From positions 1 to 26,385 of the IMG/VR virus record IMGVR_UViG_3300020182_000160: a stretch of DNA of 26,385 bases. One strand, given 5' to 3'. Made by a program: the position numbers and the translations under genes. The notes under the pieces were generated by a model. It ran no database searches and was not told the DNA's origin. It saw nothing but the letters and a program-made list of their open reading frames with translations. Positions 2,417-14,303 of the stretch are shown here, piece after piece; position 1 is the stretch's first letter; the number at the start of each line of letters is the position of its first letter. Origin of the DNA: a virus.

Positions 2417-2442
2417 TAGTCTGCCTTTCTCATATAACCTTT

Positions 2443-2471
2443 AGTATATACTACTTCAACTAAAAAGTCAA
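2443..2471 (-). promoter_or_regulatory. Sigma-70-like early/middle promoter for gp47
   Basis: TTGACT (2466-2471), 17-nt spacer, TATACT (2443-2448) on the minus strand, in the gap between the 60-residue ORF and gp47. Immediately downstream is the leader AAAGGTTATATGAGAAAGGC, which is repeated exactly downstream of the uvsY promoter. Confidence 0.8.
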
Positions 2472-2484
2472 GTACTATATTGGG

Positions 2485-2667
2485 TCATTCCCAAGGGTCA
2501 CTTTCAATATAAAAATCCAATGCCGCTTGTTGTTCGTCTAACCATTTATTATAGGTTACATTATCTTTGTGTAATAGTCTTGTTTCTGCGTCACCAAGAA
2601 CTTCTAAGTTCCAACCCATTAACTCAAGGTCTCGACCATGATATGTGAAATGTACATAATCACTCAT
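2485..2667 (-). CDS. Small conserved-looking protein downstream of gp55, function unknown
   Basis: 60 residues beginning MSDYVHFTYHGRDLELMGWN. I chose the ATG at 2667, which overlaps the gp55 stop codon by 8 nt (ATGAGTGA); a longer reading from a TTG at 2694 adds nine residues and is less convincing. The protein is acidic and aromatic-rich, ends DFYIESDPWE, and has no membrane segment or recognised motif. Its translational coupling to gp55 and shared promoter suggest co-expression with the late sigma factor, but no function can be assigned. Confidence 0.7.
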   Translation of the reverse strand: MSDYVHFTYHGRDLELMGWNLEVLGDAETRLLHKDNVTYNKWLDEQQAALDFYIESDPWE

Positions 2668-3259
2668 CAATAAATCCAGAGAGGTCACTATCAACTTTGA
2701 CTGTACGTCTTTTACGTTGTTTCTTTACAATCTCTTTCCACTCACTATCCTTGACCTTTACTTCATCAATACGAATCCGGAGTTGATCAACGAATGCTTG
2801 TGCCACTGTAGCACTCTGAGCATCACCTAATTCATTATCAAGGAAGTTCTCAATACCAGATTGATTAATATACTTCATCTTAATATCTTGTTGTTTCTTT
2901 TCTTTTTGTATACGTCTAAGGAAAGCATACCAAGATATTTGTGTGAAGTAAGCAAACGCATTCGGTCTACCTGTACGTGTTGCTGCTTCTAGATTATAGT
3001 TCTCTATTGCTTTGAGGCAGTTCTCTACTGCGTCCATTACCATCTCTTCACGATAGGTATATCTTACAAAGTTTGATTTATGGGAAAGTCCTTCACATAT
3101 TTTTAGGAAACAGGAAGCGATATAGTCGGGAACCTTTGGAAGTTGGTTTGCCTTTTTGTCACGTGCCTCATTCAGTATAGTAACATAGTCAACCACTGCT
3201 TGTGAGAACTGCGCGTTATTCACGTAGTGTGGTCTATCCTTTGGTTTTATTTTTGCCAT
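2660..3259 (-). CDS. gp55: Late-transcription sigma factor gp55
   Basis: 199 residues (T4 gp55: 185). The pattern matches T4 gp55 along its length: HYVNNAQF near the N-terminus, an ICEGLS block, YREEMVMDAVENCLKAIENY, then NAFAYFTQISWYAFLRRIQKEKK, the sigma region-2-like DNA/core-binding helices. The C-terminus, DSDLSGFIDE, resembles the hydrophobic-acidic tail (SLDFL type) by which T4 gp55 binds the gp45 sliding clamp. gp55 redirects host RNA polymerase to TATAAATA late promoters, and four such boxes are found in this window. It has its own promoter at 3296-3324 and an AGGA ribosome site. Confidence 0.95.
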   Translation of the reverse strand: MAKIKPKDRPHYVNNAQFSQAVVDYVTILNEARDKKANQLPKVPDYIASCFLKICEGLSHKSNFVRYTYREEMVMDAVENCLKAIENYNLEAATRTGRPNAFAYFTQISWYAFLRRIQKEKKQQDIKMKYINQSGIENFLDNELGDAQSATVAQAFVDQLRIRIDEVKVKDSEWKEIVKKQRKRRTVKVDSDLSGFIDE

Positions 3260-3295: not shown

Positions 3296-3324
3296 ATTCT
3301 ACTACATTTTAGTTGATAAGTCAA
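3296..3324 (-). promoter_or_regulatory. Sigma-70-like early/middle promoter for gp55
   Basis: TTGACT (3319-3324), 17-nt spacer, TAGAAT (3296-3301) on the minus strand. The start of transcription would fall about 30 nt before the gp55 ATG. It is arranged back to back with a plus-strand promoter at 3348-3376. Confidence 0.75.
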
Positions 3325-3347: not shown

Positions 3348-3376
3348 TTGACTTTTATTGTGATTTATAGTATAAT
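3348..3376 (+). promoter_or_regulatory. Orphan plus-strand sigma-70-like promoter, antisense to the uvsW operon end
   Basis: TTGACT (3348-3353), exactly 17 nt, then TATAAT (3371-3376). It is as good a match as the promoters of known genes here, but points right, toward the 3' ends of minus-strand genes. No plus-strand coding region of useful length follows; the first ATG, at 3415, is immediately followed by TAA. RNA starting near 3383 would be antisense to the 155-residue gene. I see no clear terminator for it. Confidence 0.6.
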
Positions 3377-3411
3377 TAAAGTACTCTTTGGGGAAGGTGG
3401 TATATACTAGA

Positions 3412-3879
3412 TTAATGTAACGTTTTTGGGTCTATAAACGGTAACACGTTATCACCTGAATCATCATTCTTCTCTTCTTCTTCAATACTTTTTAAATGGT
3501 CTCTTAACTTCTGAGTCATTTCATTCACATCACCATTACCTGTTACGGTTGCCTGAGTTTCTCTACTCTCATACATCTCTTGCATACTAATAAGTGCTTC
3601 TTCGTATTGTATCAATATAGAATCAACAGGTTGAGCAACGCCAACAATATGTGCTGCATTTAATATAATAAAGTCTTGTAGGTTTTCTTGGTATACCATC
3701 CAAGGTCTAAAAGAATAATATCTATAACTACCACCTTCAGTTTCACCCATAACAAGTTTCATTGCCTTACGGACAACTATCTCTGTCTCATCATCCATAT
3801 TCCATTGGACAACTTCAGCGATAACTTCCTCACCTGATGTAAGTTTAAATTGTTTGGTCTCGTATAAATCTTTACTCAT
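3412..3879 (-). CDS. Sm-like (LSm-fold) hypothetical protein downstream of uvsW
   Basis: 155 residues. The N-terminal half (about residues 9-95) has the strand pattern of a small Sm-like barrel: FKLTSGEEVIAEVV, then IVVRKAMKLVMGE, then IILNAAHIVGVAQP. The rest is a Met/Glu-rich helical stretch and an acidic low-complexity tail ending in NVLPFIDPKTLH. The Sm-like reading is an inference from the GEEVIAEV motif and strand spacing, not a firm family assignment. If correct, RNA or nucleoprotein binding would be possible. It starts 14 nt after the uvsW stop and is the last gene of the uvsY-62aa-uvsW unit. An opposing promoter at 3348 fires toward its 3' end. Confidence 0.75.
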   Translation of the reverse strand: MSKDLYETKQFKLTSGEEVIAEVVQWNMDDETEIVVRKAMKLVMGETEGGSYRYYSFRPWMVYQENLQDFIILNAAHIVGVAQPVDSILIQYEEALISMQEMYESRETQATVTGNGDVNEMTQKLRDHLKSIEEEEKNDDSGDNVLPFIDPKTLH

Positions 3880-3893
3880 ATAACTATATAGTC

Positions 3894-5393
3894 TTACTTT
3901 AAATCTAATTTAAATATTTTATATGGGAACTGTTCTTTACTGTATATTTTAATACGTTCGCCACTATGCTTCAACGTAAAGTTCTTATGAGACTTTATAT
4001 GTAAATCGTCTGCTATATCATATAGTTTAGCAACGCTGCCATCATCACTCATTCGTAATGCTCTACCAATAGATTGTAATACTTTTACCTGAGACTTACT
4101 TGGAGATGCGAATATAATATTATGTAGGTTCCTTATGTTAATACCCGTGGAGAATGTGCCCAGTGATGCTACAATAATAGCATTTTTCTGCTTCTCTACA
4201 ATACCGCGTATTTGTTCCCTATCTTTTGCATCTACCTCCCCAGAGACGTAATATACGGGTCTCTCGCCTACTTTGTCGCGTATCATATCAAATAATGGTT
4301 TACCATGCTTTTCTACGAACTGAAATAATACCAGCGAGTTTCCCTTCTGGTCTGCCGCAAGATTAGTAATCAATCTATTGCGTTTCTCATTCGTGACAAT
4401 ATATTCTATTTCCTCTTGATAGGTCTTACCCTTCATCCAATGACATACGTCGTTATGATACCTTAATAATAGAATGGAGATATCTAACTTAGCAAGTGTA
4501 CCTTTCTCCTGTAGGTCTCTGGTCATCGTCACTCTTTTCGTTACACCAAATAATCCTTCAAGCACAAGTTTATTTGTTGCGGTTCCATCGAGTGTACCTG
4601 TCATACCAAATCTATATTCGGCATTGACACACTTATTCATAATACCCGAAAGAGACTTTGCCTTGAAGAGATGAACCTCATCACCTACTACGCAACCAAA
4701 GTTCTCATACCAATCTGGACTGAACTTGTAGATAGATTGCCAAGTCGATATGATAATAGGTTTGTCGGTGTTCTTATCCTTACCACTATAGATACGATGC
4801 ACATTTTCTTCTACATCAAATCCATACTCATCAAAGTCTTTATAGAGTTGTTCAACTAGACTTGTTGTAGGAACAACAATAAGTATCTGTCTGTCACCAT
4901 AGTTATCCATGTACCATTGTATCAGATTATAACAGATAAAGGATTTACCCGAACCTGTAGGGGATAATAAAATCGCGCGTTTTTTCTCTATGCCGTGTGA
5001 CACTGCTTCGTATTGATAATCGCGTAGGGGAAAGGGTAACTTCAAACTCTCTTGAAACTTTACAAGGGTTTGGTGGTCTACTTTATTTCTCTGCGCCGGA
5101 TGTCCGTAATCAGTTTCTTGTAATCGTAGGGGATACATTCGGTCACTACAAAACTTACGTAAGTGTTCATACAAACCCACATTGAGTTCGCGCGTGACCT
5201 GATTGAATAACTTGATTTTGCCGTCCCACTTTTTGTTCTTGTAGGCAGGGACATATCTATAGTTGGGTACAAAGAAAGAAAAGTATTCGCGTAGTTCTGG
5301 TATCTGATGCGCTTCCGCATCAACCAACATCATGCTATGATTCTTGAGTCCTACGGTTATTGTATTCGGCAATGTATTCTTTGTCTCGGGCAT
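3894..5393 (-). CDS. uvsW: UvsW RNA-DNA/DNA helicase (SF2)
   Basis: 499 residues (T4 UvsW 503). The N-terminal accessory domain aligns in pattern with T4 UvsW (ELREYFSF at 33-40, KKWDGKIKLF at 54-63). Helicase motifs: motif I SPTGSGKS at 144-151, motif Ia VVPTTSLVEQ near 173-182, motif II DEVH at 238-241, motif III FGMTGTLDG at 262-270, and motif VI QSIGRALR at 440-447. In T4 UvsW unwinds R-loops and branched recombination intermediates and switches replication from origin-dependent to recombination-dependent. I take the ATG at 5393 because homology extends upstream of Met21-Met22. This start overlaps the preceding 62-residue ORF by 59 nt. An internal start at 5333, one base after that ORF's stop, is the alternative. 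Confidence 0.95.
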   Translation of the reverse strand: MPETKNTLPNTITVGLKNHSMMLVDAEAHQIPELREYFSFFVPNYRYVPAYKNKKWDGKIKLFNQVTRELNVGLYEHLRKFCSDRMYPLRLQETDYGHPAQRNKVDHQTLVKFQESLKLPFPLRDYQYEAVSHGIEKKRAILLSPTGSGKSFICYNLIQWYMDNYGDRQILIVVPTTSLVEQLYKDFDEYGFDVEENVHRIYSGKDKNTDKPIIISTWQSIYKFSPDWYENFGCVVGDEVHLFKAKSLSGIMNKCVNAEYRFGMTGTLDGTATNKLVLEGLFGVTKRVTMTRDLQEKGTLAKLDISILLLRYHNDVCHWMKGKTYQEEIEYIVTNEKRNRLITNLAADQKGNSLVLFQFVEKHGKPLFDMIRDKVGERPVYYVSGEVDAKDREQIRGIVEKQKNAIIVASLGTFSTGINIRNLHNIIFASPSKSQVKVLQSIGRALRMSDDGSVAKLYDIADDLHIKSHKNFTLKHSGERIKIYSKEQFPYKIFKLDLK

Positions 5394-5972: not shown

Positions 5973-5998
5973 TAATGTGCCTTTCTCATATAACCTTT

Positions 5999-6027
5999 AT
6001 TATATATTATTCCACGCAAAAAGTCAA
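5999..6027 (-). promoter_or_regulatory. Sigma-70-like early/middle promoter for uvsY operon
   Basis: TTGACT (6022-6027), 17-nt spacer, TATAAT (5999-6004) on the minus strand. It is followed by AAAGGTTATATGAGAAAGGC, which carries the uvsY ribosome site and is the same 20 nt found at gp47. It is divergent from the late box at 6056. Confidence 0.85.
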
Positions 6028-6055: not shown

Positions 6056-6063
6056 TATAAATA
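6056..6063 (+). promoter_or_regulatory. T4-type late promoter for the plus-strand tail-tube-like gene
   Basis: Perfect TATAAATA on the plus strand, followed by GAAGTA, 23 nt before the ATG at 6087. GAAGTA also follows the late boxes at 11914 and 16185. An AGGA-type ribosome site (TATAGGAATTAAG) precedes the ATG. Confidence 0.85.
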
Positions 6064-6086: not shown

Positions 6087-6617
6087 ATGCCACAGAATGC
6101 TACAACATTAAAAACTCAAATAAAAGATGCTGAACTTACATCTAATATAAACTACTTACAACCCACAGGGTTTCGTATTAGTATTGACCGAAAAAGATAT
6201 CCTAACTTAGAATACTTTTGTCAACAAGTCATTCACCCCCAAACTTCAGTATCCTTGGCAACTTTTGATACACCAAGAGGTTCAGTTCCTATAGGTGGAG
6301 GAAAAATGACTTTCGGTAGTGTCGAATTTGCTATTCTTGTTGACGAAAATATGGAATCATATAAAGAAATGTTTAATTGGTTACAACGTCTTGTCAACGA
6401 GGGTACAGTATCTCCGGAACAAAGAAGAACTGCAATACCAACACATTCTGATATAACCCTTTCTATATTAACAAGTCATAACAATACTAGTTCTAAGGTT
6501 GTTTATCGTGATTGTATTCCGACTGCGTTAGGAAGCATAAATTTTCAATCTAATGGAGAGGGAGGTTATTTAACATTCGCTGCTTCATTTACTTATTCTC
6601 AGTTTGAGGTTTTATAG
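6087..6617 (+). CDS. Tail-tube-fold virion protein resembling the central domain of gp54
   Basis: 176 residues; the only plus-strand gene in the window. Its strand pattern follows the tail-tube fold: FRISIDRKRYPNL, then FCQQVIHPQTSV, PIGGGKMTFGSVEFAILVDE, ESYKEMFNWLQRL, DITLSILTSHN, and YRDCIPTALGSINFQSN followed by YLTFAASFTYSQF. The segment from FAILVDE to the end matches T4 gp54 (baseplate tail-tube initiator) in order and spacing: a WVNSV-like helix, ADIQVNLHSRN, then GCIPISVSAPELS and TFDVTFAYRV. It lacks the N- and C-terminal extensions of gp54, so it could be a reduced tube initiator, a tube-end protein (gp3-like position) or another baseplate protein. A late promoter precedes it, as expected for a structural protein. 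The last 29 nt overlap the cupin gene on the other strand. Confidence 0.85.
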   Translation: MPQNATTLKTQIKDAELTSNINYLQPTGFRISIDRKRYPNLEYFCQQVIHPQTSVSLATFDTPRGSVPIGGGKMTFGSVEFAILVDENMESYKEMFNWLQRLVNEGTVSPEQRRTAIPTHSDITLSILTSHNNTSSKVVYRDCIPTALGSINFQSNGEGGYLTFAASFTYSQFEVL

Positions 6618-13775: not shown

Positions 13776-14303
13776 TTATGTAGTTGTATCAGATTCCCAG
13801 TACTGGACTTGGAAGTCAACGGAAAATTCTTCCACGCCTTCTTCGGCGCTATAGTCCAATTCTATCGCAGATACTTCTGTCGGAAAACAACTTCTGTAGT
13901 TATACTTTTTAATGGTCTCGCCATCTCTACCTAACTGTTCAACAACCATGTCACATTGATAGTCTAACGGGTTTGTTAACCCTGTGTTAGCACTATGACC
14001 TGACATACCATTCATCCAACGCTCAAAAGCATTACGAATTGAAAAGTCTGTATCGTTAAGAATAGTAACTTTCCAAGTATCAAAGGTGCGATTACCAGCA
14101 AGAACAATTTCTCTTCCTCGGAATGGAACTTTGAATGAACCAATCTTTGACGCAGGAAGTGATGATGATTTACACAAGAAAGAGGTAAGTTCTACATCAC
14201 CGCCAGCATACGCTGGGAAGTTAACAGTTGCTTTAAAGAGATTAGCGCGTGCGCCACCACCTCTTAGTTTGGATTTAAAATCGTCTAATCCTAATATTGC
14301 CAT
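13776..14303 (-). CDS. gp19: Tail tube protein gp19
   Basis: 175 residues (T4 gp19 163). The tube-fold pattern is clear: ANLFKATVNFPAYAG, then FLCKSSSLPASKIGSFKVPF, AGNRTFDTWKVTILNDTDFSIRNAFERWMNG, YNYRSCFPTEVSAIELDYS and FSVDFQVQYWES. The NRTFDTWKVTILND block corresponds directly to DRTFDDWTVTVMND of T4. It polymerises inside the gp18 sheath. An AAGGAGA ribosome site precedes the ATG, 13 nt after the gp18 stop, so it is co-transcribed with gp18. Confidence 0.97.
   Translation of the reverse strand: MAILGLDDFKSKLRGGGARANLFKATVNFPAYAGGDVELTSFLCKSSSLPASKIGSFKVPFRGREIVLAGNRTFDTWKVTILNDTDFSIRNAFERWMNGMSGHSANTGLTNPLDYQCDMVVEQLGRDGETIKKYNYRSCFPTEVSAIELDYSAEEGVEEFSVDFQVQYWESDTTT

Follow-up and report, generated by a model that had tools for sequence, protein, structure and literature searches.

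An opposing promoter between the Sm-like and gp55 genes

The window, meaning the whole 26,385-nt stretch of DNA analysed here, comes from a marine T4-like phage; judged by capsid and gp55, the annotated relative closest to it is phage C48C1 (Kyanoviridae). Phages of this T4-like group occur widely in the sea, and both the timing of their transcription and the start of their replication are poorly known. On its minus strand the window carries uvsY, uvsW, a gene for an Sm-like protein, gp55 and gp47, and these genes surround a promoter that points the other way (Table 1). This orphan promoter, TTGACT-17 nt-TATAAT on the plus strand at positions 3348-3376, was found exactly as the first-pass annotation had described it. 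The coordinates agree with that annotation in three further respects: gp55 and the 155-residue Sm-like gene are separated by a gap of 152 nt, the -35 box of the divergent gp55 promoter begins 24 nt from the orphan -35 box, and no plus-strand gene follows for more than 2.6 kb, the next plausible one (6087-6617) lying ~2.7 kb downstream. The latter, a gene of the tail-tube family, sits amid minus-strand genes and has a late promoter motif of its own, TATAAATA, at 6056.

With its -35 and -10 hexamers at a spacing of 16-18 nt, the orphan promoter has the form of a sigma-70 early promoter, and such sites occur above chance: TTGACT-N16-18-TATAAT was matched three times in the window, against 0.02 matches expected from dinucleotide shuffles. 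Transcription start sites are predictions throughout. No plus-strand open reading frame of at least 15 codons begins within ~195 nt of the predicted orphan start in the window, nor was a plus-strand terminator-like site found before ~5.5 kb in the window.

The label "Sm-like" for the convergent gene holds by way of its homologues. The window protein matches PF16243 with E=1.4e-4, below the curated cut-off, whereas the P-RSM4 protein matches it with E=1e-43, so this neighbour of gp55 diverges very fast. One HMM trained on the family nonetheless finds the gene beside gp55 throughout, in 109/109 loci with at least 3 kb upstream.

Table 1 Features of the orphan promoter and its surroundings, in window coordinates
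Feature	Positions	Strand	Remarks
gp55 late sigma factor gene	2660..3259	-	
Divergent gp55 promoter, TTGACT-17-TAGAAT	3296..3324	-	TTGACT 3324-3319, TAGAAT 3301-3296
-35 hexamer TTGACT of the orphan promoter	3348..3353	+	TTGACA, TTGACT, TGTACA or TTTACA in relatives
-10 hexamer TATAAT of the orphan promoter	3371..3376	+	TATAAT in 114/181 distinct elements
Inverted repeat AAAG-TACT-CTTT, centred on the predicted start	3378..3389	+	Arms covary across phages; weak in the window alone
Predicted transcription start (A, 7th base past the -10)	3383..3383	+	Placed by sigma-70 spacing
Purine tract GGGGAAGG	3390..3397	+	Positions 18-24 past the -10 purine-rich across relatives
A+T-rich end of the noncoding leader	3398..3411	+	Reaches the stop codon of the convergent gene
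Sm-like protein gene (155 aa), convergent with the orphan promoter	3412..3879	-	
uvsW helicase gene	3894..5393	-	Any long read-through of the orphan promoter would be antisense to it

Conservation of the promoter in T4-like phages

We gathered gp55-encoding loci from IMG/VR and from cultured phages, a collection whose counts are lower bounds. Among the loci collected, an opposite-strand promoter was present in 379 of the 396 distinct intervals between the Sm-like gene and gp55. For short intervals the proportion was 95%, compared with 16-21% after dinucleotide shuffling; many loci are related, so these raw percentages are not independent and the cluster-based covariation test described below is the safest figure. 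Phages with the promoter infect cyanobacteria (P-RSM4, P-SSM7, S-PM2, S-CAM3 and S-SKS1), SAR11 (HTVC008M and Mosig), Stenotrophomonas (DLP6) and Sinorhizobium (phiM12), and C48C1 has it as well. Melnitz, a phage of Methylophilales, falls below the detection threshold of the interval count because its -35 box is weak, and Stenotrophomonas phage Marzo is without an opposite-strand promoter at its gp55 interval. That so small a noncoding element is kept in ~95% of intervals, in phages of hosts ranging from cyanobacteria to rhizobia, suggests that it is likely to matter to the phages.

The first-pass annotation had suggested checking whether the two boxes are conserved more than the bases around them, and we compared five relatives with ~95-99% identical gp55. 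In these closest relatives the boxes (5-6/6 matches at the -35, 5-6/6 at the -10) and the 13 nt past the -10 (13/13) have been kept, while the spacer (9-14/17) and the 40 bp of upstream DNA (15-26/40) have drifted.

The proposed competition with the gp55 promoter, on the other hand, does not stand as a general feature: the spacing between the two promoters varies widely, and inserted genes separate them. In intervals that have gained a gene between Sm-like and gp55, the element sits at the Sm-like stop codon in 52 cases, at gp55 in 23 and elsewhere in 8. The element is therefore autonomous. Two genomes, G001 and G002, have no other perfect TTGACW..TATAAT promoter in this orientation, and in them it opposes 25 and 23 others, respectively. 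No small open reading frame after the promoter is conserved across the phages. In Sinorhizobium phage phiM12 an annotated 50-aa open reading frame, SmphiM12_050 (L376 17748-17900, minus strand), follows the element, and this is the only clear coding product at the gp55 position.

An inverted repeat at the predicted start site

Across the phages, an inverted repeat with arms of 4-6 bp and a loop of 3-5 nt is centred 7-8 nt past the -10, the position at which sigma-70 transcripts begin. The stem begins 0-1 nt after the -10 and rarely at other nearby positions. Of 181 distinct elements, 89 have a stem centred in this way, where shuffles give 17.8 (maximum 25); among 118 other strong promoters from these genomes only 12 have one (p=4e-13). 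The arms also covary: over 123 clusters, cognate arms pair at 4 bp or more in 48% of cases and non-cognate arms in 15% (sd 3%). The palindrome overlaps the predicted start site, as an operator recognised in trans would. Although common, the dyad is not found everywhere, and around half of the elements have no clear stem. Its sequence takes many forms, among them AGGC-ATGT-GCCT in HTVC008M, TCAGG-TGTCG-CCTGA in DLP6, CAGGA-ATG-TCCTG in phiM12, and AGACT-ATGT-AGTCT and AACGG-TGT-CCGTT in IMG/VR records. When the window sequence is folded alone its hairpin is not unusual (z -0.3); the hairpin becomes visible only by comparison. We also considered an outer stem, formed by the flank of the -10 with a distal TATAC, which is convincing by eye in many phages. 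We rejected it, as cognate pairs (5.07) had no advantage in score over non-cognate ones (4.99, sd 0.09).

The repeat is followed by a purine tract. At positions 18-24 past the -10 the share of purines is 80%, compared with 62% at other strong promoters (p=5e-14). The conserved part of what would be transcribed is only about the first 25-27 nt, and the unit usually ends 25-40 nt past the -10, where the Sm-like gene has its stop codon. The whole element is ~65 bp long. The first-pass annotation, whose promoter and boxes have proved to be conserved, had missed the repeat at the start site, the purine tract that follows it and the further copies present in some genomes.

Additional copies of the element

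A single copy, linked to gp55, was found in 9 of the 12 long genomes scanned. In the others, and in some long contigs, there are two or three copies, and each repeat lies directly past a -10 and is of the same variant as the gp55-linked one. P-RSM4 has the AACACT variant twice (extra copy at 53,290), S-PM2 has AACTCT twice (extra copy at 162,765), and genome G007 has AACCAT three times (extra copies at 14,280 and 49,020). The pairs in G022 and G023 are identical, and that in G029 differs at one loop position. Genome G006 has a gp55 95% identical to that of the window and holds three copies of a 38-nt stretch that reaches from the -10 to about +26. One is at gp55; another, at 76.7 kb, is likewise antisense and lies between two genes; the third, at 32.5 kb, is in sense orientation and runs into the ATG of a small open reading frame. 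Two of the G006 copies also match upstream of the 38-nt stretch.

A pattern scan of IMG/VR yielded at least 80 copies of the cyanophage type; among the matches listed, 63 lie beside gp55 and 17 elsewhere. These 17 are mostly in sense orientation, before open reading frames that include CP12, CpeT, a PDDEXK-like nuclease and small ones.

The sharing of genome-specific variants fits a trans-acting factor, but would also fit duplication or gene conversion of promoter cassettes. Elsewhere in the window, the promoters of uvsY (5973-6004, minus strand) and gp47 (2417-2448, minus strand) have an identical 21-nt leader, AAAGGTTATATGAGAAAGGCA, directly past the -10. Promoter-leader cassettes thus recur in the window phage beyond the element studied here.

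Possible functions of the element

The comparative evidence strongly supports the view that the orphan promoter is a real control element and not a stray or chance promoter. The two roles put forward in the first-pass annotation, antisense control of recombination genes and an unrecognised small RNA, are possibilities. As to its role, we tentatively read the element as an ancient module of promoter and leader in T4-like phages, whose start-site palindrome would be recognised in trans and which would yield a noncoding antisense transcript. Transcription from a host sigma-70 promoter would start inside the palindrome and continue into a purine-rich leader of ~25 nt. At the interval between gp55 and the Sm-like gene the product would be no protein but a noncoding RNA running antisense to the Sm-like/uvsW operon at its 3' end. 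A putative trans-acting phage factor, with a specificity that drifts between phages, would recognise the palindrome and set when the promoter fires. What the comparison shows is the conservation, the position of the dyad, the covariation of its arms, the purine tract and the extra copies with their genome-specific sequence; that the promoter is active, where exactly its transcript starts, that such a factor exists and that expression of uvsW or the Sm-like gene responds are inferred. We favour a regulated promoter because a palindrome over the start is a classical control site and because its sequence is common within, and differs between, many genomes. If this reading is right, the element would define a regulon, which in some phages would include the host-derived metabolic genes cp12 and cpeT.

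The start-site operators of bacterial and phage repressors are palindromes of 12-16 bp that overlap +1. The palindrome of the element shares this size and overlap, but unlike those operators it changes freely between phages and is a single site in most long genomes. Several points weigh against the reading. A single copy in most long genomes is odd for a regulon. The shared leaders may simply be duplicated or converted cassettes: the 21-nt leader of uvsY and gp47 is shared although it has no obvious dyad, and the 38-nt identity in G006 extends well past the palindrome. The elements that lack a clear stem, about half of the total, also count against it.

Compared with the host-type early sigma-70 promoters of T4-like cyanophages, the element has the same -35 and -10 hexamers and spacing. 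Unlike them, it points against the remaining promoters of G001 and G002, has no downstream gene at gp55, and carries a start-site dyad and a purine tract. The CfrI transcript of cyanophage S-PM2, an RNA of ~225 nt that runs antisense to psbA and to the gene of a homing endonuclease (PMC2984593), resembles the transcript predicted here in being an antisense RNA of a T4-like cyanophage, and differs in that the element lies at gp55 and is present in nearly all relatives.

The main alternative, which we regard as possible but unlikely, is that the element is a replication origin of the R-loop type of T4 oriF and oriG, present in nearly all of the examined marine T4-like genomes and with secondary copies in some. 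The promoter would then make a primer transcript: the displaced non-template strand would fold at the start-site hairpin, the purine-rich RNA would stay on the template, and its 3' end would prime the leading strand. Several observations speak for such an origin. T4 oriF (ori(uvsY)) and oriG (ori(34)) each consist of a promoter with A+T-rich downstream DNA that acts as an unwinding element, the RNA serving as primer, and the promoter at oriE is an early one. T4 oriF is situated downstream of uvsW, with a transcript that heads toward the uvsW 3' end, an arrangement similar to the one here, and UvsW removes R-loops. An orphan promoter, a purine tract and an A+T-rich stretch fit an origin, the last within a genome that is A+T-rich overall, and the several origins of T4 parallel the two or three copies in some genomes. 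Cyanophage members of the group are without motA and asiA, the T4 middle-gene regulators, so a MotA box is not expected at the element. The oriF transcript, however, doubles as uvsY mRNA, unlike that of the element, and no start-site dyad is seen by eye in the oriF promoter region. GC skew keeps its sign across the element in all five genomes in which the element was located, whereas T4 has a strand-composition switch near oriE, oriF and oriG, though not at oriA and oriC. Several of the extra copies, moreover, look like ordinary sense promoters. An origin at this site would mark where these genomes begin replicating.

We think it rather improbable that the functional product is instead the RNA, as a leader or small RNA made up of a hairpin arm and the purine tract, which the Sm-like protein encoded next to it might bind and which would serve as a 5' UTR in the sense copies. 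The constant presence of the Sm-like gene at these loci, the element's frequent persistence at the Sm-like stop codon after gene insertion and the G006 sense copy, whose leader runs into an ATG, are consistent with such a role. A normal start, however, would put the 5' arm upstream of +1 and outside the RNA, and neither a match to Rfam covariance models at the element nor a conserved terminator was seen. Mismatches within the stems, which bear on the strand that forms the hairpin, are G.T:A.C 14:2, but composition alone predicts ~2.4:1 and the excess is not significant once this is allowed for.

More doubtful still is an insulator acting through transcription interference, in which polymerase at the orphan promoter would block late read-through from uvsW and the Sm-like gene into gp55 and the early region. 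The lone opposing promoter is near one end of the cluster of early promoters in G001 and G002, and the element sits just past the stop codon of the upstream operon, in keeping with this reading, but the covarying dyad and the sense copies before genes would be left unexplained. Finally, a functionless divergent promoter arisen by chance is refuted by the comparative data and hardly credible: the region is A+T-rich and some shuffled intervals do hold such a promoter, but chance would not account for its conservation across very different hosts together with a covarying dyad.

Further sequences near the additional copies

Cyanophage promoter copies with the start-site dyad precede host-derived metabolic genes, cp12 (PF02672) and cpeT (PF06206), at L560:14280, L645, L648, L683 and L693. 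About 100 nt downstream of the antisense motif copy at 76.7 kb of G006 (L737) there is a second, degenerate leader, AATACTGGAGAGGGTTAGATATACAT. In P-RSM4 and G007, a conserved stretch, CGGCCACTACCCTAACCTACAAAGGTTCCC, lies downstream of the small gene that the extra copy would drive (L358:13664-13700 and L562:9363-9392), and is possibly an untranslated RNA or a regulatory element.
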